Positions 7,046 to 62,452 of a stretch of 64,000 nucleotides of DNA are shown in pieces. The notes beneath the pieces are model-generated. The model saw nothing but the letters and a program-made list of their open reading frames with translations, had not been told where the DNA came from and ran no database searches. A program made the translations under genes and the position numbers. The stretch covers positions 415,898 to 479,897 of the forward strand of contig SDOX01000017.1 in NCBI GenBank assembly GCA_004565275.1, in the 5' to 3' direction. The stretch is from Nannochloropsis salina CCMP1776 (Eukaryota > Sar > Eustigmatophyceae > Eustigmatales > Monodopsidaceae). Every line of letters begins with the position of its first letter. Position 1 is the stretch's first letter.

Positions 7046-7655
7046 TTGTTCTTTAATCTATTAAGCGACAGCTGCGGTAGAAGCGATACTACCGCACATA
7101 CACGCACCAGAGGAGGTGCTGCGCGGATCCTTCCTGTGCTGTGCAACACAAACCGCAATGAGGAAGACGTTTCGTCCAACCAAAACCACAATCAAGCACC
7201 TCCGTAGCACTTTCGGAGAAATACATGCATGGCCCACTAGGAACACTAGGGAACGAAGAAATTCCTATGCTTGAGACGACCAGCCGCCGACGGGCATGGG
7301 GCGAGGATCTGAGAGAGCGAAGGGGAGGGTTGAACTATCCCTGTTTTCACAAAGTCCGCCAGGGGGTGACGAGCAAACAGCATTTGCTATGGTTAAGTCG
7401 GCCTTTGCTATCATTCTCACATCTGAATTGCCTCTTGTATTCGCGGGGCAGATGAAGCGCATTACCTGTAGCGCGCCTCATTGACAAGCTCGTGGATCAC
7501 TATCGGAAGCAGATCTGGGAGGAGGTAGAAGGAGGAAAGCAGAAAATACACAACATTTGTCGATCAAGTTCAGCCTCCACTCACTCACAGTAGATGAATC
7601 TCCACTAGGCTTTAGATTCGTTTTCCATCCGACGTTTCGACCGCCCACGCCCTCC
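7046..7655. promoter_or_regulatory. divergent promoter region, PDAT / F-box gene
   Basis: This 610-base gap separates two head-to-head start codons (PDAT at 7045, F-box protein at 7656) and must carry both promoters or 5' UTRs. A frame on the plus strand is open from 7557 but has no ATG before 7656. I see no clear TATA box or repeat. Confidence 0.4.
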
Positions 7656-10600
7656 ATGAGGACATCGGGAGCGGCAGGAGATCCTGTGATCGAGCCTTCC
7701 TCCCCTTCACACTGCCTCCTGCCAACCCATCGGCACGAGCGCGGGGATACAGCAGCACCATTTGATCCCTCCTTTCGGCTACCCACAGCAGTCATACATT
7801 TGGTACTCTCGTTTCTAAACGGAAGAGAGCTGTGCATTTGCGCCCAAGTCTGCTGCGAGCTGTACGAGTGCTGTGACTACCCGCCTTTGTGGGAGGGAGC
7901 CGGCAGGGCAGCTTATCCACACGCGGAAAAGTTGGGCACGATCAACTTATACAGCGGAGAATGGAAGACACTATTGCGGGACAGGAACCGTCGGGATCGA
8001 TCGGTGCTTTTTGAGTGGGAAGTCACGGATTGCCTCCGCAACACCAACCGGCGCTTCTCCCCTACGTTCACGTTGGGAGCCTACTCCTTCCAACTCATCG
8101 TCGATCCGAGTGGTAATCCTTACGTGCCACTCGCAAAGCCAGGTGTGTCCGTCTACCTGACCTGTAGCCCCACTCAGTACGTGCGCGGACTAGCCCCTTC
8201 CGGTCGCATGTGTGTGGACCCGGCGGCCGACGAGATGCCGTATCTGAACCCCGCCGACACCCGCGCGGAGGACGTGTGGGAATGCGCGGTCGCCTTCACC
8301 TTGGCCATTGTCAACCAGACGGGCGCACGTCCTGACCTGCCCTGGTCGTCCAACCTTCTGCACGACCGGTTCCGGCCTCATTGCCGGGAGTGGGGGGTCC
8401 ACAGGCTAGTTTCCTTGCGGCGACTGCAGGACTCCGCCAACGGATATTTGAGCGAGACGGGGAGCATCAAAGTGGAAGCGCGCCTCCGGCTTGCCTTTTT
8501 GTCTCTGAAAGTGTTCACCTCAGACGGAATGCGGGAATACGCTGGCTTTGGGCTGGCGAATGTCCACGCCCCGGCCCCCGCCTTATCGCGCGGAGGGACC
8601 CGCTCCTTCTTGCAGCCCCCCCCCCGGCCCAGGTACCTGGCCAGTACGGACGCCTTCCCTCCGTCCCCAGACACATACACGACCAGCTTGCTGACAACCA
8701 CCACGGCCTTAGATCCGGTGTTGGCGGTGCCCCCCCTCCCTTCCTACGCCGTGCTGCTCCCGGAGGCGGACGGTATGGAGGAAGAAATGGAGGAGGAGTT
8801 GGGAGAGGAGTCGAAAGAGGAGGCGCGGGGGATGGAGACAGGAGAGCCAGTAACCTCTCCTCCTTCCTTCTTCCCTGAATGCACAGCAGACCGGCCCCGC
8901 TCCAACTCTCCTTCTCCTTCCAGCCACCCCTTTCCCGCCTTCACGACGCCCTTCTGGAGGTACGAGGTCTTCCAATGCATGACCGTTGCCGCTTTTCGCG
9001 CTATTCTTGCCAAGGACCTCAATCTCTCTTCGCCCAACCACCTCCGTCTCTGGATCGTGACCCAGCCCTGGGCGGATTCGCCGGCTGCCCCGCGCGAGTT
9101 GATACGGACCGTTCCCCTACCCGATCACCCCGCCTTACCCGACGACTTCAATTACGAAGAGCTGCCTCTGTCCATTCTGGAGGAGCACCAGACATTAGCC
9201 ATGGCCCTCGGTGCCCACATGGACTGCTTGGATGAGGTGCGGGTGTGGGCGGAGGTGGCGGGGGACGGGGGACTAACGGTGGCGGAGGGAGGAAAGGAGG
9301 GAGGGAGGGAGAAAGGGAAGGGGCCAAGCGGGAAGGTGGTGAAGACGTTGGTGCCCGTGAGCAGGGAAGCGGAGCTGGACGTATCCCCGCAGACGTTGCG
9401 GATGCTCCCTGATCCGACGGATCCTGTTCAGTACATGGACGCGGTGGAAGACCGGGGGGACGGAGGGCTCGGCCGTTGGGGGGACGGGGCGGTGGAGGAA
9501 CAGGGAAATCGAGAATCGGAGCCCGATCAGGGTGTCCTCGGTCTGAGCTCGGCATCAGCCGCGCAAGCACGCCAGATGCCTACTCTTGGTGGGGCCAGGG
9601 AGGAGAAAGAATTCGAAGGAGGCGCCCGTGACGACGCAGGAGTCCTGCGCGACACTACGGAATCGGGGCAAGACGTGGCTACGGCCCCTGCCTTGGACCC
9701 CTCCAGCCTTCCACCGTTGTCGGAGGGGGACAGCCAAATAGCTGCTGGATCCATGGCTCCGCCAGAATCGCCCACCTTCATCCTCCTCTTCTTCAAACAC
9801 CTGGTCCCCGCCTTTCCTGTGGGACCTGGCAAGCTTGGGAGCTCTGCGATCCCGGCTACGGGCGCCTCTCTTGAATTCTCTTCTCACGCCTTGCTGCCCA
9901 TCGACACCCCCGTCCACGCCCTTTTCACATTCATGGCCCGCGAGATGCTTCCGCGGGGAGGAATGGGGAAGTCCGGTCAGACAAATGCGAAAAGGAACAC
10001 GTTGGCTACTGCCGATCCTGGCGTCGCCCCCATGGAGTCGGGGAGTTCCGCTGCGATGCTGCGGTGCTTGGTAGAGACGCCTCCGAACAATTGGCAGCCC
10101 GCCTCAGCTGGATCTGAAAAGGCCAAGGGCCGACTTAGCAGTCTATGGAGTGACAGGAAGGAAAATGGTTCCTTTATGGGCGACAACCACTGCGGGAGGA
10201 AAGATAAAGATAGCTTGCTTGTCGAGCTGGGCGAGGCAGATTCTCCGCGAGGCGAGCAGCTGGGGCGTGAGGAAGGGGCCCGCCCGGTCCGTTTTCGGTA
10301 CCTGAACTACCATCCGACCAAGACCATTAGCGATTTGAGGCTGGAGAACGGGCACATCCTCTCCTTTTTTCAGGCTGGACAGGAGGATTTGATCCAGCAC
10401 GTGTACTGTTCCATGGCACAAAACCTGCTCCGAACTGCGGCAGCCATTTACGACTGGATCGGTCCCTCTGCCAAAGTAGAAGAGACCCCCTGCCCGATCA
10501 ACGTGACGTTACATCAGCGGCACGATTACGTCCCAGAAAACTTCCCACGCGTCTCCTCTCTCTCTACCGCCCCGTGGTTGGCACCTGGGCCCTCGGCCAT

Positions 10601-11030
10601 GTGCCTGCGCCCCCGGGGATCGCGACTTAGGCCCCGCTTGACCCTCGAGACCGTCGTCGATCTTTTCGAAAAGGTAGGGAACCAACGTTTCCGCGTTCGC
10701 AACACATTCTTTGAGCAAGAGCACACAGTCGCCCGTCAGACATTGGACTACGGATATGGCCGCCACCTGGGCTTTTGCTGCGACCGATGTGGAGAGTTAG
10801 ATTTTACTGGCCCTCGTTACAAGTGCTGCGCGTGCCAAGACTTTGACCTTTGCCATGATTGTCATCTGTTGCCTGTGGAAGGGCATCGATACCGCTTCAA
10901 GGGTCGGTCTTGGGCGCGGGAGGATTTTTCTGGTCACACCGACGCTCACGCCGTGGTATGCCTGCAGCCCATTCCGTCCACGTTAGCTATGCTCCGTCGC
11001 TTTAGCGTCAAGGAATCTGCCGAGGTGTAA
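7656..11030 (+). CDS. F-box / USP7-type UBL / ZZ zinc-finger protein
   Basis: Single-exon frame of 1,124 codons from the ATG at 7656; the open frame begins earlier at 7557 but only with a TTG. Residues ~40-85 form an F-box-like segment (LPTAVIHLVLSFLNGRELC, then a PPLW motif), the domain that ties substrate receptors to SKP1-cullin ubiquitin ligases. The middle contains pieces resembling the USP7 ICP0-binding (UBL) region: ILLFFKHLVP, LEFSSHALLPIDTPV and, near residue 890, LNYHPTKTISDLRLENG. Residues ~1040-1095 form a ZZ zinc finger with C-x2-C, C-x2-C, C-x2-C pairs and a terminal His cluster (CCDRCGELDF, YKCCACQDFDLCHDCH). Low-complexity Glu/Gly-rich linkers join the parts. Ubiquitin ligase substrate recognition is inference from the F-box; the ZZ finger probably binds a peptide or N-terminal degron. 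Confidence 0.75.
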   Translation: MRTSGAAGDPVIEPSSPSHCLLPTHRHERGDTAAPFDPSFRLPTAVIHLVLSFLNGRELCICAQVCCELYECCDYPPLWEGAGRAAYPHAEKLGTINLYSGEWKTLLRDRNRRDRSVLFEWEVTDCLRNTNRRFSPTFTLGAYSFQLIVDPSGNPYVPLAKPGVSVYLTCSPTQYVRGLAPSGRMCVDPAADEMPYLNPADTRAEDVWECAVAFTLAIVNQTGARPDLPWSSNLLHDRFRPHCREWGVHRLVSLRRLQDSANGYLSETGSIKVEARLRLAFLSLKVFTSDGMREYAGFGLANVHAPAPALSRGGTRSFLQPPPRPRYLASTDAFPPSPDTYTTSLLTTTTALDPVLAVPPLPSYAVLLPEADGMEEEMEEELGEESKEEARGMETGEPVTSPPSFFPECTADRPRSNSPSPSSHPFPAFTTPFWRYEVFQCMTVAAFRAILAKDLNLSSPNHLRLWIVTQPWADSPAAPRELIRTVPLPDHPALPDDFNYEELPLSILEEHQTLAMALGAHMDCLDEVRVWAEVAGDGGLTVAEGGKEGGREKGKGPSGKVVKTLVPVSREAELDVSPQTLRMLPDPTDPVQYMDAVEDRGDGGLGRWGDGAVEEQGNRESEPDQGVLGLSSASAAQARQMPTLGGAREEKEFEGGARDDAGVLRDTTESGQDVATAPALDPSSLPPLSEGDSQIAAGSMAPPESPTFILLFFKHLVPAFPVGPGKLGSSAIPATGASLEFSSHALLPIDTPVHALFTFMAREMLPRGGMGKSGQTNAKRNTLATADPGVAPMESGSSAAMLRCLVETPPNNWQPASAGSEKAKGRLSSLWSDRKENGSFMGDNHCGRKDKDSLLVELGEADSPRGEQLGREEGARPVRFRYLNYHPTKTISDLRLENGHILSFFQAGQEDLIQHVYCSMAQNLLRTAAAIYDWIGPSAKVEETPCPINVTLHQRHDYVPENFPRVSSLSTAPWLAPGPSAMCLRPRGSRLRPRLTLETVVDLFEKVGNQRFRVRNTFFEQEHTVARQTLDYGYGRHLGFCCDRCGELDFTGPRYKCCACQDFDLCHDCHLLPVEGHRYRFKGRSWAREDFSGHTDAHAVVCLQPIPSTLAMLRRFSVKESAEV

Positions 11031-11685
11031 CCAATCAATATGGAGCATACGACGCTGCGTTCACCAGAGTGGGAAATTGTAACGTGCTAGAGAACCTACG
11101 CTCTCACATCACGAAGATGCACCATATAGCCCGACGTCATCGAGAGTATGCGATACAAAGAAAAATTGGAGAGCGATGCATCTATATCAGCATATAAATG
11201 GACATAACGGACATAACAATATAATGTTCAAAAGACTTTGCAGGGGGCCATTTTATTTCCCATGCACCAGAAATTTACGTGTCAAAATTTCCAGCCATGC
11301 ACGACGTGGAGAGGAGGTTATTGCCTGGAACCGCAACCGGTCATTTGCCGTAAAAATGGCACATCTAAGTAGTATGAGTAAGCAGTGTAGCGTTGACTCT
11401 TGGTTTTCATCCTCGTTGCTCCTCACTGACGGATCTGGGGCGTACGCCTTTTCCCGCTGTACCCGCCTACCCCTCGCCCACGCCAGGGGAGACGGCTCGC
11501 CAATTTTTTTTTGTTCGCAGACTTGTCTTATCTGTGTCTCATCTCATGTTATCTAAGACCGACACCCTCAGCTTTGCCTCATTTGGGGAACGTGTCGATC
11601 ACTATGCTTCATTGTTCCATTCTCTGGGTTCCCTTTTTCTCCCTCGAAAGTTTTGGTGCCATTTCCCGAGAGGGGCGCAGAGGAC
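11031..11685. other. intergenic between tandem genes
   Basis: This 655-base AT-leaning gap has no supported gene. It holds the F-box gene 3' end and the dynactin gene promoter, with a pyrimidine-rich stretch at about 11500-11650 just before the next ORF. Confidence 0.4.
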
Positions 11686-13593
11686 ATGGCCTTGAATGCT
11701 GAACGGTTGCTGCGGCCACTATTTCCGTCCCATAATCACGATGATCGGATTTTAGACAACGACTATGGCACAAATGAGGGTGTATCCGATGTAAAGGTCG
11801 TATTTGCAGATTACCAAGGCTGGTGGGCACCTTTGACGCATTTGTTTTATAGCAATGCCTCCCAATGCCTCGTCAGCGCGCACCCTGAAAGCAGTATTGA
11901 AGAAGTCGAGTCATTTTACTGCTCACATTGCCTGGACTACTTTGCTGACGCAGAAGCGGCAAGTTCTTATCATCGTTGTCCTCGTTGCTTCGATTGTCCG
12001 CAGTGCACAAGTGCGCTTCTCATCATATCAGTCGACGAGGAAAGCAATCAAGAAGAGAATGATGCAGGTTACACGTTTCGGTGTGGATACTGCCGTTGGT
12101 CCTCCGCTGACTCAATTGGACTGATCGAGAGCACTCCCGAGGCTTTGATAGAACGGTTAAAAAAGACAGAATTGGATGATCCCCAGGCAGTGCGGTATCG
12201 CGCCTTGTTGCAGCATCTTCGCCAACGGGCCGTGGCGATAGCGCGGGCACGCCGACACCACGATCGACAGTACTTGCTCTCTGCGCCCTCCGCACTGCCA
12301 ATAGAAAACGAGCTGGACAGTCTAGGTATGGGCCCCGTTCGGGCACGGGCGCGTTGGCATTTGTCGGACTTGGAGGAGAAGGAAGATCGCCGGCAAGCGG
12401 CCCGGACCCGCGCGACGGACGGAAAAGAGACTGCCTATCTGTATACGTTACTCACGGAGGAAAGGATGGGAACGAAGACTGCAGCCGACGCCTGCCCTTT
12501 TTCAGCCGAAGACGTGGACCGCGCCCCGGCATCCTGGGTCACCCTGAGGACACTTTTCCCCCGTGGTCCGTCATCGCAAACGGCCAGTCGCTCTCTGTAT
12601 CCCCCTTTGACAAGCCACTCACGACCTCGGCGACGCCCCCTGTGCACCAAGCGGGTGCGTCGGTGTCGCCAAGACGTGGAAGCGGGGAGACCAGGCATCC
12701 TCCTCAAGCCCAAGGTGAACCCATTGGAGGGTGATTCATCCTGGACGGGCACGGCAGGAAAGTGGTGGCAGAAAGACTCGAGCGCAATCCATGTTCTTCC
12801 GTCCGTGAGCGTCATCCGCGCCCAAGGACTAGAGAGCGTGTTTGCAGGGAGGGCGAGAGCCACAGGGGTCACAGAAGGCGGTGGACAGGAAAGTGATGCT
12901 GACGCAAGACAATGGGCGAAGAGTCCTTTTGCTGGCACTGGAGACGATCCTGAGGCCCTCTCTTTTGTCTTGCGCCTGCGCAACCCTCTACGGGGCGCGG
13001 TACAGGTCGTTCTCGTCCCACCTCCGGCGACTCCCGAGGGCGCTGGTGCTACGGAGCTCTATTACCTGCGGCGCCTGCCAGTGGCGCTCGGAGGCGATGT
13101 GAATAGCAGCAGAAATGTGGGCAATTTATTGTATGCCCGTGTACCTTGCGCGGGTGCTGAGCAGGCGGTCGCGGGCGAGGCGGTGAACCTGGAGGCTTTC
13201 GAAGACGACCTTCTGGAGGAGGAAGAAGAAGGTGAGGACCAAGAGTCGTTGGACGCCCTCGCCTTGCGTCTACTGGATGGCGACACGAAGATACAGCGGG
13301 AGGAGGGCGCACAGGAGATCTCAGCCACACGAGTGCTCTTACGACGCAAGTCCCGTGCCTGGCTTCACGTGAAAGTCCCGGTCCCAAAGGCTCCCCTTGT
13401 CCTGGACAAGGACGCTGCGGTGGGGGTTCTATTATTCTTACGATTCTTTAGTCATCGAAGTGAGTTTAGCAGCAATCGTAAAGAGTCCGCATTTATCACT
13501 GTGCCCGTGTGCTTGGCGTTTACTCGGGATAGTAAAAGTAGTGATTCTTGCCATGACGTGGACCGGTGTACGAAGCATTTAAGCATAAGATAA
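11686..13593 (+). CDS. DCTN4: dynactin subunit 4 (p62) homologue
   Basis: A single 635-residue frame from the ATG at 11686 (the frame is open further 5' from 11653 without ATG). The N-terminal third carries the paired-Cys pattern of the dynactin p62 family: FYCSHCLDYF, then RCPRCFDCPQC, then FRCGYCRWSS, with WSS the usual family signature. The C-terminal part ends with a beta-rich domain (LLFLRFFSHRSEF and FITVPVCLAF) matching the family's final domain. Dynactin p62 sits at the pointed end of the Arp1 filament in the dynein activator dynactin. Poorly conserved Arg/Glu/Ser-rich loops lengthen it compared with animal DCTN4 (about 460 aa). This implies cytoplasmic dynein in the organism. Confidence 0.85.
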   Translation: MALNAERLLRPLFPSHNHDDRILDNDYGTNEGVSDVKVVFADYQGWWAPLTHLFYSNASQCLVSAHPESSIEEVESFYCSHCLDYFADAEAASSYHRCPRCFDCPQCTSALLIISVDEESNQEENDAGYTFRCGYCRWSSADSIGLIESTPEALIERLKKTELDDPQAVRYRALLQHLRQRAVAIARARRHHDRQYLLSAPSALPIENELDSLGMGPVRARARWHLSDLEEKEDRRQAARTRATDGKETAYLYTLLTEERMGTKTAADACPFSAEDVDRAPASWVTLRTLFPRGPSSQTASRSLYPPLTSHSRPRRRPLCTKRVRRCRQDVEAGRPGILLKPKVNPLEGDSSWTGTAGKWWQKDSSAIHVLPSVSVIRAQGLESVFAGRARATGVTEGGGQESDADARQWAKSPFAGTGDDPEALSFVLRLRNPLRGAVQVVLVPPPATPEGAGATELYYLRRLPVALGGDVNSSRNVGNLLYARVPCAGAEQAVAGEAVNLEAFEDDLLEEEEEGEDQESLDALALRLLDGDTKIQREEGAQEISATRVLLRRKSRAWLHVKVPVPKAPLVLDKDAAVGVLLFLRFFSHRSEFSSNRKESAFITVPVCLAFTRDSKSSDSCHDVDRCTKHLSIR

Positions 13594-22634: not shown

Positions 22635-25600
22635 ATGCTCGCCTTCCCCACTCCGGGGCTCACGGCCCCTTTCCTCGCCATCACGCAGGCCAAAATGCGG
22701 AAAGAGCATCTGAGTGACGCGGCCATTGCCTCCTTCAAAAATTCTTACATGGCCCTGGTGTCGGGCGCCTCAGGAGTCATTGCCGAAAGCGATATCAAAC
22801 CCGCCGAGGGCCTACCCAATCTGGAGAAAGATCTAAAGCCCAAGATCAAGGTGAACCCGGAGCTTCTCAAGGAAACCGTGGTCTTGAAACTGAACGGCGG
22901 GCTGGGCACTGGCATGGGCTTGGACAAGGCGAAATCCCTGCTGCCCGTGAAGGGGAAGGATACCTTCTTGGACCTGACCGCCAAGCAAGTCATGGCCTTC
23001 CGGCATAAATTCAAGAGCCACGTCCGCTTTATCCTCATGAACTCCTTCAGCACCTCCGAGGACACGCTCAGCTACCTGAGCAAGTACCCGGCGTTGGTCG
23101 CCGACCCCAACCTGGAGCTCCTGCAAAACAAAGTCCCCAAGGTGGATGCGGCCAGCCTGGAGCCAGTGGCATGGCCCACGAATCCCGCGCAAGAGTGGTG
23201 TCCTCCAGGCCACGGCGATCTCTACGCGGCCTTGGACGGATCGGGGACCTTGGACCGTCTCCTGGCGGACGGGGTCAAGTACATGTTCGTGTCCAATTCG
23301 GACAACCTGGGCGCGACCTTGGATCTGTCCCTGCTCACGTATTTCGCCGAGTCGGGCTCCTCCTTCATGATGGAGTGCGCGGAGAGGACGGAGGCGGACA
23401 AGAAGGGGGGGCACCTGGCGGTACGGTCCAGCGACGGCCAGCTGATCTTGCGGGAATCTGCCCAGTGTGCCAAGGAAGACGAACCCGCCTTCCAAGATGT
23501 CTCGCGGCACAAGTACTTCAACACCAACAACCTGTGGGTGCGCCTGGACAAGCTCAAGGAGGCCACCATCGCCGCCGGGGGTCTCATCCCCCTCCCCATG
23601 ATCAAGAACGGGAAGACCGTGGACCCCAAGGACGGGAAAAGCCCCAAAGTTTGGCAGCTGGAGACGGCGATGGGCGCGGCCATTGAATGCTTTCCCGGCT
23701 CGTCCGCCGTGGTCGTGCCCCGCACCCGCTTTGTCCCCGTCAAGAAATGCAACGACCTCCTCCTCCTCCGCTCCGACACCTACGTGCTCACTGCCGACGG
23801 AACTCCGGCTCTGGACCCGTCTCGGCACGGCGCCGCCCCTCTCATCAATTTGGACGATAAAGCCTACAAGCTGGTGCAGCAGCTCGAGGCGGCCACTCAG
23901 GGGGGAACGCCCTCTCTGGTGGGCGCGGACCGCTTGACCATCCAAGGGCAAGTCTGGCTCTCCTCGGGGGTCGTCTTTCAGGGCACCACCACGGTCACGA
24001 ACACGGGCGACGAGCCCAAAGTGCTGCCGAAGGGGGTTTACAAGGATGCGAGTGTGGACCTGACGGCGGCGCCCGGTCTCGGGGCCCTCCGGCCCACGAT
24101 TGTGGCCACGGCTCCCATCCCCGGACAAAAGCCTGGTACCTCAGGGCTTAGGAAGAAGGTGGTGGAGTTCCAAAGCCCCCATTACCTGAACAATTTCGTG
24201 CAGGCCGTATTTAATGCCTTGGTGGACTTTGGGACGGACGTGACCCTGGGGGGTAGTCTGGTTGTGGGCGGGGACGGCCGCTACTTTAACCCCGAAGCCA
24301 TCCAAATCATTACCAAGATGGCGGTGGCCAACGGAGTCAAACGGATCTTGATCGCCAAAGACGGCCTTCTCTCGACCCCAGCCGCGTCGGCGGTCATCCG
24401 TGAGCGGGGCCCCGCCTGGCAAAAGGCGTTCGGCGCGTTCATCCTCTCTGCTTCCCACAACCCGGGCGGACCCTCGGAAGACTTTGGGATCAAGTACAAC
24501 ATCGAAAATGGAGGACCGGCTCCCGAGAAGGTGACCAACGCCATGTACTCGTATACCACCACCCTGACCTCCTACAAAATCGCGCCGGATTTCCCAGATG
24601 TGGACACAAGTAAGCTGGGCAGCACCCGGGTCGTCTCGGCGGACGGGAGCCGTGGTGTGGTGGTGACCGTGTTCGACGGCCTGGAGGGGCACGTAAAGCT
24701 GCTCAAGACCATCTTCGATTTCGAGGCGATCCAGACGCTTATGCAACGGCCGGATTTTTCCCTTGTCTACGACTCCATGTCCGGAGTCCAGGGGCCGTAT
24801 GCCCACAAGGTGTTTGTGGAGGAGTTGGGCGCGGCGACGACCTGTCTCTTGAACGCGGAGCCCAAGGATGATTTCGGGGGAGGGCATGCGGATCCGAATC
24901 TGACGTACGCACACGATCTCATCCATGTGATGGGGGTGGACAGCAAGGGTAACGCGGTGGCTGCGAAGGAGGGGGTCTTGATCCCTTCCTTCGGCGCGGC
25001 GGCGGATGGAGACGCGGACAGGAACATGATTTTGGGCCGACAGTTCTTTGTGACGCCCTCGGATTCCTTGGCGATCATCGTGGCGCACGCAGACGTGATC
25101 CCCTTCTTCCGGGACCAGGGAGGCCTGCGTGGGGTCGCGCGGTCCATGCCCACGAGCGGTGCGGTGGACCTGGTGGCCAAGCGGATGAACATGAGCCTGT
25201 TCGAGACCCCGACGGGCTGGAAATTCTTTGGAAACCTGATGGACAGCCGGGAGATGGGCGGTGCGAACTACACGCCCTTCATTTGCGGGGAGGAGAGCTT
25301 TGGCACGGGCTCGGATCACGTCCGGGAGAAGGACGGCATGTGGGCTGTCCTGGCCTGGCTGTCCATTCTGGCCCATTACAACCAAGACCCGAAGAAGGCC
25401 CTGGTCTCGGTGGAAAGCATCGTGCGGGAGCATTGGCGGACGTATGGGAGGTGAGAGGGGGACAGAGAGGAGGCTGGGTCGAGGCGAGGAGGGGCTGACG
25501 GAGAAAGGGCGTCCGGCACGAGCGCATGCCTGCAGACAATCGTCTTAGGCTGTTCTCCCCTCTACGTCGCTACCACCTGTGTGCATGGCAGTGGCCCGAC

Positions 25601-38375: not shown

Positions 38376-41300
38376 CTAGAACCCCTTCCGTTGCTTCTGC
38401 GAGCGTGGCTCCGCTTGTCCCGCCCGGGCCTCGTAGTCCAAAAGACCTCTGGCGATCGCCGCCTGCATCGGCGTCAGCATGTCCATGTCTTCAATGATCC
38501 CGTCCAAGACACCGGCATGAATGCCCGCCCCCAGGGCGACTGCTTCGTCTGGATCGACGGTTGTCCTCGGCGTGATGCCAGTGACGGCTGCCACCAGGCG
38601 TCGGATCGATGGCATCCTGGTCGCCCCGCCCACCATCACCACCTCTTGAATACTTCGTCCTTGTGGGAATTCACGGATTTTCAGGCCAGGGTTGCGTTTC
38701 CGTACGGCGTTCAAATTCTTACTGTACATGCTCCGGGCTTTGCTCACCTTGCGGCCGGTCATGGCGCGTTCCCGCATCAACGTCGCCAGTTTTTCTTTCT
38801 CCGATTCCATCCCCTCCGCGTCTGCCGCTGCCAATTCCTGGTCCCGCATCAAGACTTCCATGGCTGCTTTCTCCCCCCCGTCCCCAAGGGCATCCACCAG
38901 TTGCCCTCCCAGCGCATCCGGCGCCACTTCCCCACCAAGAGTCGCCCCTGCCATCAAGGCCGCCTGACGCATGGGCTCCAGCAGCCGATCGTACAGATCT
39001 CCGCACAGCTTCTCCATTCCCGCCCTCGTCAGCGTCAACGGGCCCAAATCCTTCCCTTCGCCCCCCAGCGCCGGGATTCGAACCTCGGTTTCCGAGGCCT
39101 GCGACAAGCGCACCCTCGCGCCTTCAGCCGCCTCCATCAGCTTCCTCTGGCTCGTCCTGTCCGACTGCGGGCCTTGGCCCCCGTGCTGCTTCCTGTACTC
39201 CCCCACCAGCCAGTCCGCGACGCGCTTATCGAAGTCGTTCCCACCCAAGGTCGCGTCCCCAAAGGTGCTGAGGACCTCCACCACCCCGTCCCCCACTTCC
39301 AATACGCTCACGTCGAAGGTGCCTCCCCCCAGGTCAAACACCATGATCAGTTCGTCCTCCCCCAACATGCGGTCCAGCCCGTAGGCCAGGGCGGCCGCCT
39401 CCGGCTCCCGCAACAATTTGATCCGTTGCAAGCCCGCCAGTGCCCCCGCCCGCTCCGTCGCCGCGCATTGAGCCGGTGTGAAGTATGCGGGCACGGTGAT
39501 AACCGCCCTGTTCACGGGTTTTTCCAAGTAGGCAGCCGCGTCTTCAAGGAGGGTCTTCAAAATCTCGGCCGACACCTCCTCAGGGGTCACCTCCCTACCC
39601 AGGGCCGGACAGCGCATGGCCACACAGGCCTGGCCGCCCCCCTCGGCCTCCCCCTCGGCCTCCTCCACCGTCCGTCGCACCAGGTTCAGCGACCCCAAGA
39701 TCTCCTTCTCCTGCAGCATCTCCTCCAGGCCCCGGCCCATGAGCCGCTTCACCGACGAGAACGTGTTGTCCGAGTCTGCCACTGCCACGGCCCGGGCGGC
39801 CTCCCCCACCACCACCTCCTTGCCCCGGAATCGGACCACCGAGGGGGTGAGCGCGGCCTCCGTGGCTCTGGACGGCAAGATCAAGGCCTTCCCGTCCTTG
39901 ACAAGGGAGAGGGCAGAGTTCGTCGTCCCCAGGTCGATGCCCACACACGCCCCTACCGACTTCATCGCCGCCACCTCTTCCTCGCTCAAACGTCCCACCG
40001 ACAGAGGCACCTGCAACCCTCCCCCGTCCTCCTCCGCCTCCTCCACGAGCGGCACCTGCGCCACGGCTCTCTTGTTCCCCAAAGGCGCCCGGTAGCTGTC
40101 CAGCGCCTCGACCTCCTCCTCCAGGTCCCCCACCTCCAGACCCATCTCCTCCATTCGCTGAAGCAACTCCGAGGCAGCCGCCAGATCCCCGCCTTCCACG
40201 CTCGCTTTCAGGGCCGTCAGGATGGTGGCCGGGTCTGCCAACTCGTCCCGCAGTCTTCCTTCCGTCTCGGCCGCCTCCTCCTCGCCCTCATCCCCGCCCC
40301 CCGTGTCTTCCCCATGGCCCTTCTTCAAGTTCCGCCACAGGTGCCTTAAACCATCCTCCACCTCCTCCGAGCTCATCTCCTCGGCTCGCAGGTGCCCGCC
40401 CACGTCAAACACGTCCTCGTCCTCCTCATCATCCCTGACCGTGTCGTCGTTTAAAAGATCTCGGGCTAACCTCCTCCCCTCTTGAGACCCGCTGAGGAAA
40501 CGGAGCAAATTCTCCTCTCCTTCCTCCTCCTCCTCCTCCTCCCCTCCGTCTCCTAGCGGCCCCAAAATATCGTCCAAATCCATCTCCTCCTCGTCCTCGT
40601 CCTCTCCCTCAGGCATCTTTCCGAAAATTTCCTCGGTCATGCCTTCGTCGTAGAAGTCCGTCTTGGGGTCCACCTCCTCGTCAGGATCAAACAGGGCCTG
40701 GACAGGGACACCCGTCCACTCTTTATCGCTCTCAATGTCCTTCAAGAGCAAGTCCATCAGTCTCTTCTTGTCCAAGGCCAGCATCTCCTCCTCCGAGAGG
40801 GTTTCCAGCCAGCGCATGGACCAGGCAGGGGGCTCCCTTTCCACCCCTCCCGACTCAGTGCCCCGCCCTTCGCCTTCGCCCTCCTCATTCCTTAACCTTT
40901 CGTCCGACGCCGCTTTCCCTGAAGCCTCGGAGCGCGACAACTTTCTTCCATGCACCCGGCCTGTGACTTCCTCGATCATCGCGTCGCTAATGGCCAATGG
41001 ATCAACATCCTCCTCCTCTTCTGACTCCGCAGCCTCTTCCCCCGCCTTGGGAACAAATGGTTTAGCTCCTTTTGAATTCGACTGAGTAGTACGTTTCTTT
41101 TCATCGCCGTCGTCGTTCTCAATTTTTTTGCGCATACCACCCCATCGCTTGGCAGCGCGCAGGACGACTGGACAAAGACCATCCCATACCGGCCCAGAAT
41201 TTGGCACGTGAGGCCCCCAATGCCTCCTCCAGCGTGCCATCGGTGTGAATGATATGGTTGTGGTCGAAAGATGCCTCTGCTTCCCGTGTGGTAAGGTACC

Positions 41301-41432
41301 AGGGCCAACCCAGGCTTCGCAACCCGCCAGCAGCAACAGCACCCCCAGCAGCATGATCAGTCCACACTCCGCCCCCAAATGGCCAGGCATGACACCTGAT
41401 CCCTGTCTCAGTGCTGCGCCGTGTGGGTGCAT
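38376..41432 (-). CDS. plastid-type Hsp70-like protein lacking the substrate-binding domain
   Basis: A single 1,018-codon frame from ATG 41432; the ATG at 41390 gives a cleaner signal peptide (MPGHLGAECGLIMLLG...) ending in a CEA-W border like the plastid import site. Residues ~60-490 form a long acidic, low-complexity region with Glu/Asp runs. At ~490 a canonical Hsp70 nucleotide-binding domain begins: GIDLGTTNSALSLV, then RAVITVPAYFTPAQ, REPEAAALAYGLD, VFDLGGGTFDVSVLE and VVMVGGATRMPSIRRLV. An inserted Glu/Ala-rich helix (AADAEGMESEKEKLATLM) lies before the last subdomain. The chain ends just after VDPDEAVALGAGIHAGVL and lacks the interdomain linker and peptide-binding domain. It may act as an ATP-driven scaffold or regulator instead of a classical chaperone; this is inference. 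Confidence 0.88.
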   Translation of the reverse strand: MHPHGAALRQGSGVMPGHLGAECGLIMLLGVLLLLAGCEAWVGPGTLPHGKQRHLSTTTISFTPMARWRRHWGPHVPNSGPVWDGLCPVVLRAAKRWGGMRKKIENDDGDEKKRTTQSNSKGAKPFVPKAGEEAAESEEEEDVDPLAISDAMIEEVTGRVHGRKLSRSEASGKAASDERLRNEEGEGEGRGTESGGVEREPPAWSMRWLETLSEEEMLALDKKRLMDLLLKDIESDKEWTGVPVQALFDPDEEVDPKTDFYDEGMTEEIFGKMPEGEDEDEEEMDLDDILGPLGDGGEEEEEEEGEENLLRFLSGSQEGRRLARDLLNDDTVRDDEEDEDVFDVGGHLRAEEMSSEEVEDGLRHLWRNLKKGHGEDTGGGDEGEEEAAETEGRLRDELADPATILTALKASVEGGDLAAASELLQRMEEMGLEVGDLEEEVEALDSYRAPLGNKRAVAQVPLVEEAEEDGGGLQVPLSVGRLSEEEVAAMKSVGACVGIDLGTTNSALSLVKDGKALILPSRATEAALTPSVVRFRGKEVVVGEAARAVAVADSDNTFSSVKRLMGRGLEEMLQEKEILGSLNLVRRTVEEAEGEAEGGGQACVAMRCPALGREVTPEEVSAEILKTLLEDAAAYLEKPVNRAVITVPAYFTPAQCAATERAGALAGLQRIKLLREPEAAALAYGLDRMLGEDELIMVFDLGGGTFDVSVLEVGDGVVEVLSTFGDATLGGNDFDKRVADWLVGEYRKQHGGQGPQSDRTSQRKLMEAAEGARVRLSQASETEVRIPALGGEGKDLGPLTLTRAGMEKLCGDLYDRLLEPMRQAALMAGATLGGEVAPDALGGQLVDALGDGGEKAAMEVLMRDQELAAADAEGMESEKEKLATLMRERAMTGRKVSKARSMYSKNLNAVRKRNPGLKIREFPQGRSIQEVVMVGGATRMPSIRRLVAAVTGITPRTTVDPDEAVALGAGIHAGVLDGIIEDMDMLTPMQAAIARGLLDYEARAGQAEPRSQKQRKGF

Positions 41433-41846
41433 CAAAAGGGGTCGAAAGGACGTACACGCGCGTGAGTCGGTGCGATGTTGCAGTTGAAGGGGCCAGGGGA
41501 GGGAAATGCCAGGGTGTGTGGATGCGCCGGCCCGTCATATGTTCATGATACGCCGGAAAGCCGAGGGCGAGGCTGCCGAAGCTTGAGGAGAGGAAAACGC
41601 ACGGTAGAGGCCCCTTTGTATGCTTAGCCCCATGACCGTCACGCATGCACTGCTCTGCGAGCAAGTGGGTAATTGACTTGGTCATCTCCTCATCCTTTTA
41701 TCCCCCAGGGACAGCAACAAAGAGCGCCGGCCGGACGCCTCACTGTCACACCCCTCTTGTCACGGTACTGAAGGGGGCCAGGAGCTCGTGCCAGCTTATC
41801 GCACTCATCGACCACCGACAGCGTCTATCGAGAACTTAAAAAAATC
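41433..41846. promoter_or_regulatory. divergent promoter region, Hsp70-like / LSM4
   Basis: A 414-base gap between head-to-head genes. No TATA box or heat-shock element (nGAAn repeats) is evident to me. Confidence 0.4.
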
Positions 41847-59896: not shown

Positions 59897-60936
59897 CTAT
59901 TCCTCGTCGCCGTCCGCGTCATAGCCTCTCTCTCGGGGCAGGTAGTGTCTTCGAAGCGTCCGCCAAAGCTCCCGGTCCAGGGCCAAGCCTTGTCTCAGCA
60001 CCGCGCGGGCAGCGCCCTCCCCTTCCCCTCCCTCTCCCTCCATCACGTCCCAGCTGCCTTTCAGTACCTGGTCCTCCAGCTGTCCCGGACCCCATGACAT
60101 GTAATTGAACCACCATTTGAATTGCGATCGATCCAGTCCATGCTCTGCCTTGTTTTCTGCGGGGGCGAGAATATGATGGTCTGTGGGATGAGTTTCGTAA
60201 CATGGAGGAAGGGAAGGGACAATGGACCGGCGCGGAGGGAGGAGAGACGTGGAGAGCATTGCGAGCCATGTTCCTTCAGAGGCATGCATGCCTTAGCCAT
60301 AACGACAGCGAACGATTTTCTGTGGTCAAGCCACAAAGAGACGCCACACATGGTTGCAGAGATACTGCGCCCGCCTGTCCCGATTCACTTACCCTCCTGC
60401 TCTTTGAACATGGCCTCCGCTCCACTCAAACCCCCATAGTAAAGCCCGCCACCCACGGAACGCACTCCTGGCACGTGCTTGTATGGATGCAGCAGCACGG
60501 CCATGTCTCCTCCTTGCTCCCCGCCCAAAAAGACGGTGTGATTCGCGAAGACGGACGCCGCAAAGGGCGGCGCAAGCTCGGACAAGGTAAAGGCGGTCGG
60601 CTTCTCCAAGACAACCCCGCGGGAGCCAGTCTCAGAATCATGCTTGTACAGGAATAGGCAGCTTTTGCTTGTGAAGTGGTTGTACTCCCATGGTTTTGCT
60701 ACCAGGATCTGGCCTTGTTGGAGAGTCGGGGGTACGCCCTCAGGGAGGCTGCGTATATTGATGCCTTCAGCGAGCAACGGTTTGTCGAGTGAAAGCGTCG
60801 TACTCCGGCGACCACGACGCTGCGCTGGTGACCGCTCAAGTAGTTTAGTAGACAAGTGCAAGTGGTGGAATGCGAAGATGCTAGTGCTTTGGACCAGGAA
60901 ACTCAAGCCTAGAATAAGATAGAGCGTAAAGGGCAT
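59897..60936 (-). CDS. plastid-targeted UPF0301/AlgH-family protein, two exons
   Basis: Exon 1 is 60936-60393 and exon 2 is 60156-59897. The 236-base intron (GTAAGT...CGCAG) splits a Glu codon, and the spliced product has 267 residues. The N-terminus MPFTLYLILGLSFLVQSTSIFAF is a signal peptide with an FA-F plastid border. The UPF0301 (YqgE/AlgH, DUF179) core follows: GQILVAKPWEYNHFTSKSCL, then GSRGVVLEKPTAFTLSEL, VFLGGEQGGDMAVLLH, VGGGLYYGGLSGAEAM and, in exon 2, WWFNYMSWGPGQLEDQVLKG. The GQLExE-type ending is the family's strongest signature. The family's biochemical role is unsettled; plants have plastid versions. It is convergent with the SGNH gene and divergent to the DIX gene. Confidence 0.88.
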
Positions 60937-61609
60937 ACCCGCGCCCCAAACCCCAGCTCTGCAGCTCCTCCGGTTGGCTTCAACACACCTTTTAAAGCAA
61001 CCGCCAGGTTAGTGTGCCCTGATTTTTTGGTATATTTTTTTGTACACATAAGTAAAAGCCCGAGGGAGGAGTGAATATTTAACCCATGTCTCTTTTTGTA
61101 GGCGGCATCGCCCAGAAAACCTCAGCGTGAGGGATCTGGCGATGGCGGCCGTGTCGCTTTTAGTGCAGCAAAACCTTACACAGCACCTCAGGCCCCGAGT
61201 ATTTTACGGTCTCATGTGTCGTATCAGATCGATATACAATTGTGCACGCTGTACGTGCCCTGTAGCGCGGAGGTGGAGAGTGTTCGAACACGTCAAAAAG
61301 GATACGAGGAACCGAATTCGGAGCATTGCGATGAAGCCCGTGCCGTAAATTATTAGTTAGTTCCAAATGGTATTCACCCTGTGACACGACCGCGCGAGCC
61401 ACCCCGAGTATCGTCTGCAGTGGTGCTCCAACGTGTGAAGCATGTATCCCGTGCCAAAGGATTGTCGGGGATCCTTTGCGTTTCTCGGTTCAGTGATCTC
61501 CCGACACTGATCCTAACTGCTCGCCTTCTTGTCCTTTCTATTTCTTACAGAGTCTTGCGCCTCCAGCATTCGCCCGCCAAGCCTGGTTCACAGCCTATTT
61601 CCCAATACC
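60937..61609. promoter_or_regulatory. divergent promoter region, UPF0301 / DIX-domain gene
   Basis: A 673-base gap between head-to-head start codons. AT-rich at 61015-61080. A pyrimidine tract ending TTTCTTACAG at about 61542-61551 looks like a splice acceptor, so the DIX gene may have a 5' UTR intron. Confidence 0.45.
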
Positions 61610-62452
61610 ATGATACGGTATTACATTCCTGGCGACGGGGACGACGCGTCGCACCCAAACATCTTTCATCTCCCACCATCGGTCCAACAACCCCCACGGT
61701 TGCGGGACGTTCGACAGCACTTCCCGCTCCCAGGCGCCTACCACTTCCGCTTCAAGACACGATTGGATGGAACCCCCGACAAGAAAGCGGTCTGGATGGA
61801 CGTCACGGAGGACGTGGCCGAGCTTCCTACTTTTGACGGATTTTACATAGCCAAGGTGTCACGGATGCGCATGGAAATGCCGAGCAAGCCCACGGCGGCG
61901 GGGAGTACGGGTATGTCTTCTTCTTCTTCCTCCTCCCCCACGTCTGCGGGTTATTCCAGGACAAGCCAAGCCACAGGCCCCGTCTCAGCGACCAGAGCGA
62001 CTCCCTCCGCCTCCCAATCCCCGCCCCTTCGAGGCAACAAGGGACTTGTGCCGCCGGCCTCCGACAATGATCCGTTCGGGCTCTTTCACGAGGCCCCTCC
62101 CTCGTCCTCCACCACCTCCTCCTTCTCAAAGGCCCCAGCGAGCGTGTCTGGGAACAGCAGTGCGCCCCACGCGACGACGGGCAGCAGCCACCCCGCGGCT
62201 CGCGGCCATCCACCGCACTCTACTACAGGGCCACAGGGAATGTCTGGAAAAAGCAAGGTAGCTGCAGGAATGGCCGCTGGTGGGAAAGGAGATTTACTAG
62301 ATTTTGATGCCTTTGGCAGCCAACCGCCGGCTCCTTCAGTGCCACCCATGAGGGGAGTGCCTCCCATGCGTGGAGTGAGTCCACCGCAGCAGCCACAGCA
62401 GCGGCAGACGGGCTACCCTTCCTCGTCCAATGCGACCGAGGGATGGATGTAA
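61610..62452 (+). CDS. DIX-domain protein with clathrin-box and AP-2 motifs
   Basis: A 280-codon frame from ATG 61610. Residues 1-85 match a DIX domain, the head-to-tail polymerising module of Dishevelled and Axin. MIRYYIPGDGDD aligns with the opening strand (V-YYIxGE), RLRDVRQHFPLPGAYHFRFK with the LGDFKxxLxxxGNYxFFFK segment, and VWMDVTEDVAELPTFDGF with the VxEEVxDDxAxLPxFxGK segment. The rest is Ser/Pro-rich and disordered and contains DNDPFGLF (a DPF-type AP-2 appendage motif) and DLLDFDAF (LLDFD fits the clathrin box L-phi-x-phi-D/E). This suggests a polymerising endocytic adaptor, which is inference. It is divergent to the UPF0301 gene and convergent with the membrane protein gene. Confidence 0.82.
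   Translation: MIRYYIPGDGDDASHPNIFHLPPSVQQPPRLRDVRQHFPLPGAYHFRFKTRLDGTPDKKAVWMDVTEDVAELPTFDGFYIAKVSRMRMEMPSKPTAAGSTGMSSSSSSSPTSAGYSRTSQATGPVSATRATPSASQSPPLRGNKGLVPPASDNDPFGLFHEAPPSSSTTSSFSKAPASVSGNSSAPHATTGSSHPAARGHPPHSTTGPQGMSGKSKVAAGMAAGGKGDLLDFDAFGSQPPAPSVPPMRGVPPMRGVSPPQQPQQRQTGYPSSSNATEGWM

Follow-up and report, generated by a model that had tools for sequence, protein, structure and literature searches.

A DIX protein of the ATHOS type with candidate clathrin and AP-2 binding motifs, and a DIX protein with an auxilin-type J domain, in the alga Nannochloropsis salina

The genome of the alga Nannochloropsis salina CCMP1776 encodes two proteins headed by a DIX fold, one of the ATHOS type, which alone of the two carries a clathrin box and a DPF motif, and one of the DARTAGNAN type, which ends in an auxilin-type J domain, together with a clathrin and an AP-2 whose binding domains are recognisable. 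The occurrence of a DIX auxilin in the same genome as the ATHOS gene represents the strongest new fact of the present analysis. On balance, it seems probable that the ATHOS-family protein acts on clathrin coats and that the co-polymer formed by its DIX domain with that of DARTAGNAN would behave as a split auxilin. The co-polymerisation of both proteins in the alga, the binding of the motifs and the uncoating role are what we infer from the domains and motifs described below.

DIX proteins of this kind belong to four "Musketeer" families distinguished in the SAR group by Kostareli et al. (2025), namely ATHOS (DIX and a disordered region), PORTHOS (NAK kinase), ARAMIS (ELMO) and DARTAGNAN (DnaJ), and Nannochloropsis is named by these authors among the non-motile algae that possess such proteins (PMC12077222). 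Head-to-tail polymerisation of DIX domains from SAR organisms was demonstrated by van Dop et al. (2020), who also found that the Dvl2 DIX domain can be replaced by its counterpart from Blastocystis or Cryptosporidium (PMC7042713). The first-pass annotation of the locus had suggested an endocytic role for DIX polymers outside Wnt signalling and had framed the protein as a stand-alone adaptor; DIX domains outside Wnt were already in print in these two papers, and the stand-alone framing gives way to the published ATHOS family, of which the gene is a new member, Pfam finding none of the membrane- or cargo-binding domains that characterise adaptors. The main text of PMC12077222 names neither clathrin motifs nor any other motifs of the ATHOS tail and contains the word "auxilin" zero times. 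Among the titles and the openings of abstracts listed by searches of the open-access literature, no statement was found on clathrin motifs of ATHOS or on a DIX auxilin; among the papers listed by a full-text search, the term "DIX domain" occurs only in PMC12077222 and in a paper on phosphosignalling (PMC9103620).

The DIX protein encoded at 61610-62452

The window, i.e., the whole stretch of 64,000 nucleotides that was analysed, contains the ATHOS-type gene, with the following features:

61610..62452, + strand: whole coding frame of 280 aa, an ATHOS-type DIX protein (DIX and low-complexity tail), the open reading frame being read as one protein
61610..61867, + strand: DIX domain, residues 1-86 (Pfam and predicted structure)
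61652..61663, + strand: H15-P16-N17-I18, putative equivalent of H34, H36 and F37 on the head surface of SOK4 (register by eye; SOK4 residues from the accessible part of PMC7042713)
61793..61801, + strand: W62-M63-D64, putative counterpart of SOK4 W83-Y84-D85, a polymer contact (by eye; same source)
61877..62449, + strand: Ser/Pro/Ala/Gly/Thr/Gln-rich tail, residues 90-280 (composition)
62063..62095, + strand: island 1, DNDPFGLFHEA, residues 152-162 (motif and island scan)
62288..62320, + strand: island 2, GDLLDFDAFGS, residues 227-237 (motif and island scan)

An in-frame stop occurs upstream at 61514, and the ATG at 61610 is the sole in-frame ATG between this stop and the DIX domain. A scan of the 100 bases upstream of the gene for bacterial promoters returned nothing, the underlying model being not applicable to a eukaryote. 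On the opposite strand, the gene adjoins an AlgH-like (DUF179) frame (60388-60936, - strand). Elsewhere in the window, UDP-glucose pyrophosphorylase and phosphoglucomutase are fused in a single frame (UGP-PGM; 22638-25451, + strand), a layout found in stramenopile algae and consistent, like the SAR-type DIX set, with a stramenopile, and another open frame (7560-11027, + strand) associates F-box, MATH and ZZ zinc-finger matches, to our knowledge an unusual combination. A Dynactin p62 match (11656-13590, + strand) covers profile positions 1-119 of 477 only. Finally, an open frame of 1019 aa (38379-41435, - strand) matches HSP70 in two stretches, the best one at residues 498-825, its upstream part corresponding either to a long N-terminal extension or merely to an open upstream frame.

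The Pfam DIX profile PF00778 matches residues 14-83 of the whole protein (E=6.9e-10, 39.1 bits for a cut-off of 22.2), residues 12-83 when the domain is scanned alone (42.6 bits), and, in a six-frame search of the genome, aligns with the gene over profile positions 2-77 of 77 (43.9 bits). A model of residues 1-97, built from a three-sequence alignment, reached medium confidence (mean pLDDT 74.1, pTM 0.62) and exhibits the ubiquitin-like DIX fold according to Foldseek, ranks 1-23 against the PDB being occupied by DIX domains only (Axin, Dvl, Ccd1 and SOSEKI). The best of these matches has an E value of 1.9e-4 (TM 0.62/0.73), three of the 23 lie at E<=0.001, and SOSEKI occurs at rank 22 (E=0.11). 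A search of solved structures with the single DIX sequence proved misleading, titin (E=0.0014) and Rtt102 coming on top and Axin following at 0.22-0.35; with a profile of the three DIX sequences of the genome, Dvl1 ranked first (E=0.006). Since Pfam and Foldseek agree, the identity of the domain is settled despite the misleading single-sequence search, and the N-terminal DIX domain of the first-pass annotation, for which profile and fold checks had been recommended, is confirmed by both. The annotation was equally right in reporting neither DEP, PDZ nor RGS domains, none of which is listed for the protein by Pfam at E<=10, a threshold at which the filters still remove most weak matches and DIX and a sub-threshold SOG2 are the only entries. 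The DIX-like domain of SOK stays below its Pfam cut-off (12.8 bits versus 24.3).

With respect to polymerisation, W62 and D64 are invariant in the alignment of all three DIX proteins of the genome and, by eye, match W83 and D85 of SOK4, whereby they provide a residue-level hint that the ATHOS DIX domain may assemble head to tail; H15 similarly matches H34 of SOK4 by eye. By its layout, the protein is assigned to ATHOS as defined in PMC12077222, consisting of an N-terminal DIX domain and a tail disordered by composition, without any C-terminal domain.

The tail comprises 191 aa, 71% of which are S/P/A/G/T/Q, and is presumably disordered, as judged from this composition. It contains a single DPF (residues 154-156, window 62069-62077) and a single LLDFD (residues 229-233, window 62294-62308) corresponding to the clathrin-box pattern L-hydrophobic-x-hydrophobic-acidic, in agreement with the DPF and the clathrin box that had been annotated. 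Both are embedded in the two 11-residue islands, which, counted by eye, account for every Asp of the tail (five) and for all but one of its five Phe. Since both the motifs and the island count were chosen with the sequence already in view, the composition controls are post hoc: 200,000 shuffles of the tail yielded a clathrin box in 0.26%, DPF/DPW in 2.4% and both in 0.0045% of cases, and none of 20,000 shuffles reached the 12 of 16 tail D/F/L/I/W residues that are gathered in the islands. Short linear motifs have a degenerate consensus and bind weakly. Within an otherwise inert tail, islands of hydrophobic and acidic residues are the usual appearance of short binding motifs. DPF and LLDFD are predicted to bind the coat machinery.

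DIX partners and clathrin machinery in the genome

When PF00778 was searched in six frames (E<=10) against the assembly of this alga (26.5 Mb in 103 contigs), three places were obtained, namely the ATHOS gene and two other loci, L003 and L004. In L003 (1402-2742, G000:C29), a DIX domain is combined with an ELMO_CED12 domain (E=1.7e-22), which corresponds to the ARAMIS type, and L004 (1444-2986, G000:C37, about 749032-750574) consists of a DIX domain, a long low-complexity stretch and a C-terminal J domain, as in the DARTAGNAN type. The DIX domains of L003 and L004 scored 22.5 and 22.3 bits, respectively, in the genome search, and 19.2 and 17.8 bits in a whole-frame hmmscan, both under the cut-off of 22.2. 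Because of its weak profile score, the L004 domain was folded as a model (mean pLDDT 70.6, pTM 0.55), for which Foldseek ranks 1-24 are all DIX domains, with a best E value of 1.3e-5. The ATHOS and DARTAGNAN DIX domains share 35% identity in the alignment (BLASTP: 32% over 76 columns, E=5e-6). Outside this genome, the whole ATHOS protein returned 16 pattern stretches and no relatives from a collection of viral contigs, and the three-DIX alignment gave 62 stretches among prokaryotic genome contigs and 14 among viral contigs, again with no relatives.

The J region of L004 matches the solved chains 1nz6 of auxilin (E=5.6e-20), 1xi5, labelled auxilin J-domain (7.3e-20), and 3ag7 (1.9e-15), whereas the best ordinary Hsp40 is found at E=0.02; by these E values the J domain is of the auxilin type. 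The Pfam DnaJ profile remains below its cut-off on this locus (21.2 bits versus 27.8). Besides L004, the genome gave no strong match to an auxilin-type J domain, the next ones having E values of 0.02 and 0.69 in a six-frame search without introns. Its last exon reads VFTSVNEAYTVFAAKELK-stop, and the spliced protein amounts to 465 aa.

Canonical coat motifs (clathrin box, DPF/DPW, FxDxF, NPF and DLL) are entirely missing from the 465 residues of spliced DARTAGNAN, non-canonical ones being possible, and the ARAMIS linker is similarly devoid of coat motifs, the sole match, LIMVD at 352, being located inside the ELMO domain. These absences are unsurprising because shuffles give the same result, a clathrin box and a DPF/DPW appearing in 1.1% and 3.7% of the shuffles of DARTAGNAN residues 96-370, and in 7.3% and 1.8% of those of ARAMIS residues 96-250, respectively. 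The complementary pattern of the candidate motifs, present in ATHOS and missing in DARTAGNAN, is thus only suggestive. The fourth family, PORTHOS with its NAK kinase, was not found with two DNA patterns of kinase motifs, and introns could hide such a gene; the first pattern occurred at two places, L012, a GSK3-like frame by eye, and L011, with a different residue string, and the second one at none. Since PORTHOS was not found, the GAK-like set appears incomplete.

The partners expected for the motifs are present. Clathrin heavy chain is represented by seven PF00637 repeat matches on contig C55 and by a terminal domain (E=4.2e-93), its C-terminal tail containing QLMLT, which we take to be the Hsc70/auxilin uncoating motif. 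Of the residues R64, Q89, F91, K96 and K98, presumably those of the clathrin-box groove, R64, Q89, F91 and K98 are kept in the alignment of the algal clathrin, K96 is replaced by Arg, and the Thr two positions before Q89 by Gln. The light chain gives a partial match (E=1.3e-4), and PF01394, searched for the heavy chain, had no match in this genome nor in the control genomes and is thus uninformative. The AP-2 alpha appendage is present (E=5.3e-28) and its alignment conserves W840, R905, E907, R916 and R920, which we assume to form the platform site for DPF, a textbook ligand of AP-2 alpha; a neighbouring Phe is replaced by Met.

Among the eight ENTH/VHS/ANTH open frames that were read (L022-L029), three of which (L023, L025 and L026) appear to be exons belonging to a single gene, a clathrin box occurs in one (L027) and DPF/DPW in three (L022, L027 and L029). 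The tail of L027, a VHS-GAT (TOM1-like) adaptor (G000:C48:136834-137127 and beyond), contains LMSFD, FDDDF, DPW and DPF. Judging by these frames, the putative words of coat binding are used elsewhere in the genome, though not in every adaptor-like frame. The clathrin-box pattern also occurs in folded regions, once within the VHS domain of L027, besides once in its tail, and once within the folded appendage of the AP-2 alpha frame L010 (LLRIE).

A role on clathrin coats and its alternatives

In the mechanism proposed here, the ATHOS DIX head would polymerise head to tail, engaging both other ATHOS heads and the DIX domain of DARTAGNAN. The resulting co-polymer would multiply the weak contacts of the ATHOS motifs by avidity and would be held on the coat, whereas DARTAGNAN, entering via its own DIX domain, would present its Hsc70-recruiting J domain beside clathrin. 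The coat-binding part and the J domain of this split auxilin would thus reside on two chains coupled by DIX. A related idea had been put forward by Kostareli et al., who speculated that DARTAGNAN and PORTHOS might rebuild a GAK-type activity (PMC12077222). Compared with this speculation the cast changes, DARTAGNAN possessing the auxilin J domain and the canonical coat motifs being located on ATHOS, not on DARTAGNAN.

Pulldowns in two other organisms fit the split-auxilin reading. ATHOS and DARTAGNAN of Phytophthora palmivora each pull down the other, and spectra of both ARAMIS and DARTAGNAN were obtained with ATHOS as the bait (PMC12077222). For Plasmodium, the accessible part of Miao et al. 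(2025) presents in Table 1 a DIX protein of 177 aa and a DnaJ protein of 568 aa, found with 61/62/56 and 62/68/62 spectra, respectively, in the clathrin light-chain pulldown and with none in three controls (PMC12742282). The heavy-chain pulldown gave 3/9 spectra for the DIX protein (P 97%, FDR 0.6%) and 9/10 for the DnaJ protein, and that of AP-1 gamma gave 2, 0, 0 (not significant) and 3, 5, 4. According to a word search of the main text, both proteins are named only in this Table 1 and its legend. As far as their accessible parts go, a review of J-proteins classifies the Plasmodium DnaJ protein as type III and does not mention auxilin (PMC11594657), a paper on AP-2 mu places a DnaJ chaperone, called Vps9, in the clathrin interactome and leaves the DIX protein unnamed (PMC7042695), and the main text of a paper on Tepsin names neither of them (PMC12323583).

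The clathrin link drawn by the first-pass annotation partly holds, because the one J protein of the auxilin type detected in this genome belongs to the DIX proteins and the Plasmodium pulldowns, as reported in the accessible part of PMC12742282, put a DIX protein with clathrin; the stand-alone character of the adaptor does not hold. The clathrin reading of ATHOS is well motivated. Against a split auxilin, each ATHOS motif occurs in a single copy, the Plasmodium DIX protein is scarce in the heavy-chain pulldown (accessible part of PMC12742282), and the Phytophthora ATHOS is located near the flagellar insertion (PMC12077222). Moreover, other motifs might allow DARTAGNAN to contact clathrin without a partner.

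The latter location leads to the best surviving alternative, which we nevertheless regard as unlikely, namely a scaffold of polarity or motility, whose DIX polymers would mark a cortical site and whose tail motifs would recruit a non-clathrin partner or be incidental. ATHOS-mScarlet was observed close to the ventral groove of the zoospore, where the flagella insert, a motile stage exists in 97% of the SAR species of the data set, and the authors themselves favour polarity or motility (PMC12077222); polarity is also the role of DIX proteins in plants and animals, according to the accessible part of PMC7042713. Yet Nannochloropsis is a non-motile exception (PMC12077222), the present genome keeps three DIX loci, and a scaffold of this kind leaves unexplained both the auxilin-type J domain located behind a DIX domain and the DIX protein in the Plasmodium clathrin pulldowns (accessible part of PMC12742282).

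It is somewhat less likely still that the coat partner is the AP-1 clathrin of the Golgi or endosome instead of the AP-2 clathrin of the plasma membrane, which would associate ATHOS with secretory or endosomal traffic, not with endocytosis. A clathrin box cannot distinguish AP-1 from AP-2 coats, and in Plasmodium the clathrin with which the DIX protein co-purifies is for the most part associated with AP-1, AP-2 being scarce; the same pulldowns, however, show no significant association of the DIX protein with AP-1 gamma itself (both points from the accessible part of PMC12742282). In addition, the residues aligned with the presumed DPF site are retained in the AP-2 alpha appendage of the alga. 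AP-2, rather than AP-1, is to be regarded as a candidate partner of ATHOS. Least of all do we expect that the motifs arose by chance in a low-complexity tail and that the protein oligomerises with, or caps, the other two DIX proteins without direct coat contact: the motifs are single copies of a degenerate consensus chosen with the sequence in view, but their joint rarity in the tail shuffles, the clustering of hydrophobic and Asp residues in two islands and the use of the same motifs by the VHS-GAT tail speak against it.

Returning to the split auxilin, a broader proposal is possible, although it is to be held tentatively: in this alga, and possibly in SAR eukaryotes generally, auxilin would consist of two pieces coupled through DIX co-polymerisation, where ATHOS reads the coat and the adaptor, DARTAGNAN brings the J domain, and the length of the polymer sets the loading of Hsc70. 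Were this true, control of the coat cycle would be an old job of DIX, of which Wnt signalosomes and plant polarity are later or parallel uses, and this old job would account for the repeated encounters between DIX proteins and clathrin adaptors in animals. Functions of DIX polymers beyond Wnt and plant polarity have been suggested by the 2025 paper on SAR, in terms of motility and, speculatively, of GAK-type activity (PMC12077222); the auxilin type of the J domain in the DIX-J protein, together with the coat motifs of ATHOS, turns the GAK speculation into a precise and testable scheme. If correct, this scheme would represent a new way to build an uncoating factor, polymer-coupled and in two pieces, and would give a reason for the presence of DIX and DnaJ proteins in Table 1 of the malaria clathrin paper (PMC12742282, accessible part).

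Comparison with known systems

The protein resembles the ATHOS family (PMC12077222) by its N-terminal DIX domain, its long disordered tail with short motifs, the lack of a C-terminal domain, and its occurrence beside proteins of the ARAMIS and DARTAGNAN types. Compared with the main text of that paper, the present analysis adds the clathrin box and the DPF of this ATHOS, as well as the assignment of the J domain of its partner to the auxilin type.

With respect to auxilin and GAK, the likeness resides in the J domain of DARTAGNAN and in the working parts of fly auxilin, of which the clathrin-binding motif and the J domain, over-expressed, suffice for rescue according to the accessible part of PMC2391152. 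Here, in contrast, the motifs and the J domain are distributed over two proteins, each headed by DIX, and Pfam lists neither a kinase nor a PTEN-like domain in ATHOS or DARTAGNAN. Unlike auxilin, DARTAGNAN has no canonical clathrin or AP-2 motif of its own.

Dishevelled, Axin and DIXDC1 share the DIX fold with ATHOS, which differs in being devoid of DEP, PDZ and RGS domains, and the likeness implies no Wnt pathway. Dishevelled and LRP6 also interact with AP-2 and clathrin in the course of Wnt signalling (accessible part of PMC12095580). Similarly, the SOSEKI proteins of plants possess an N-terminal DIX domain with the W-x-D motif of polymer contact, but the Pfam SOK profile stays below its cut-off on ATHOS. 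The clathrin-associated sorting proteins, e.g., epsin, AP180 and TOM1-like adaptors, whose usual layout is described in the accessible part of PMC11246429, come close to ATHOS by the association of a folded N-terminal domain with a low-complexity tail containing DPF and a clathrin box, which ATHOS presents once each. They differ in that the folded domain of ATHOS is a predicted polymeriser and not a known binder of lipid or cargo, no membrane- or cargo-binding domain being present among its Pfam matches at E<=10.
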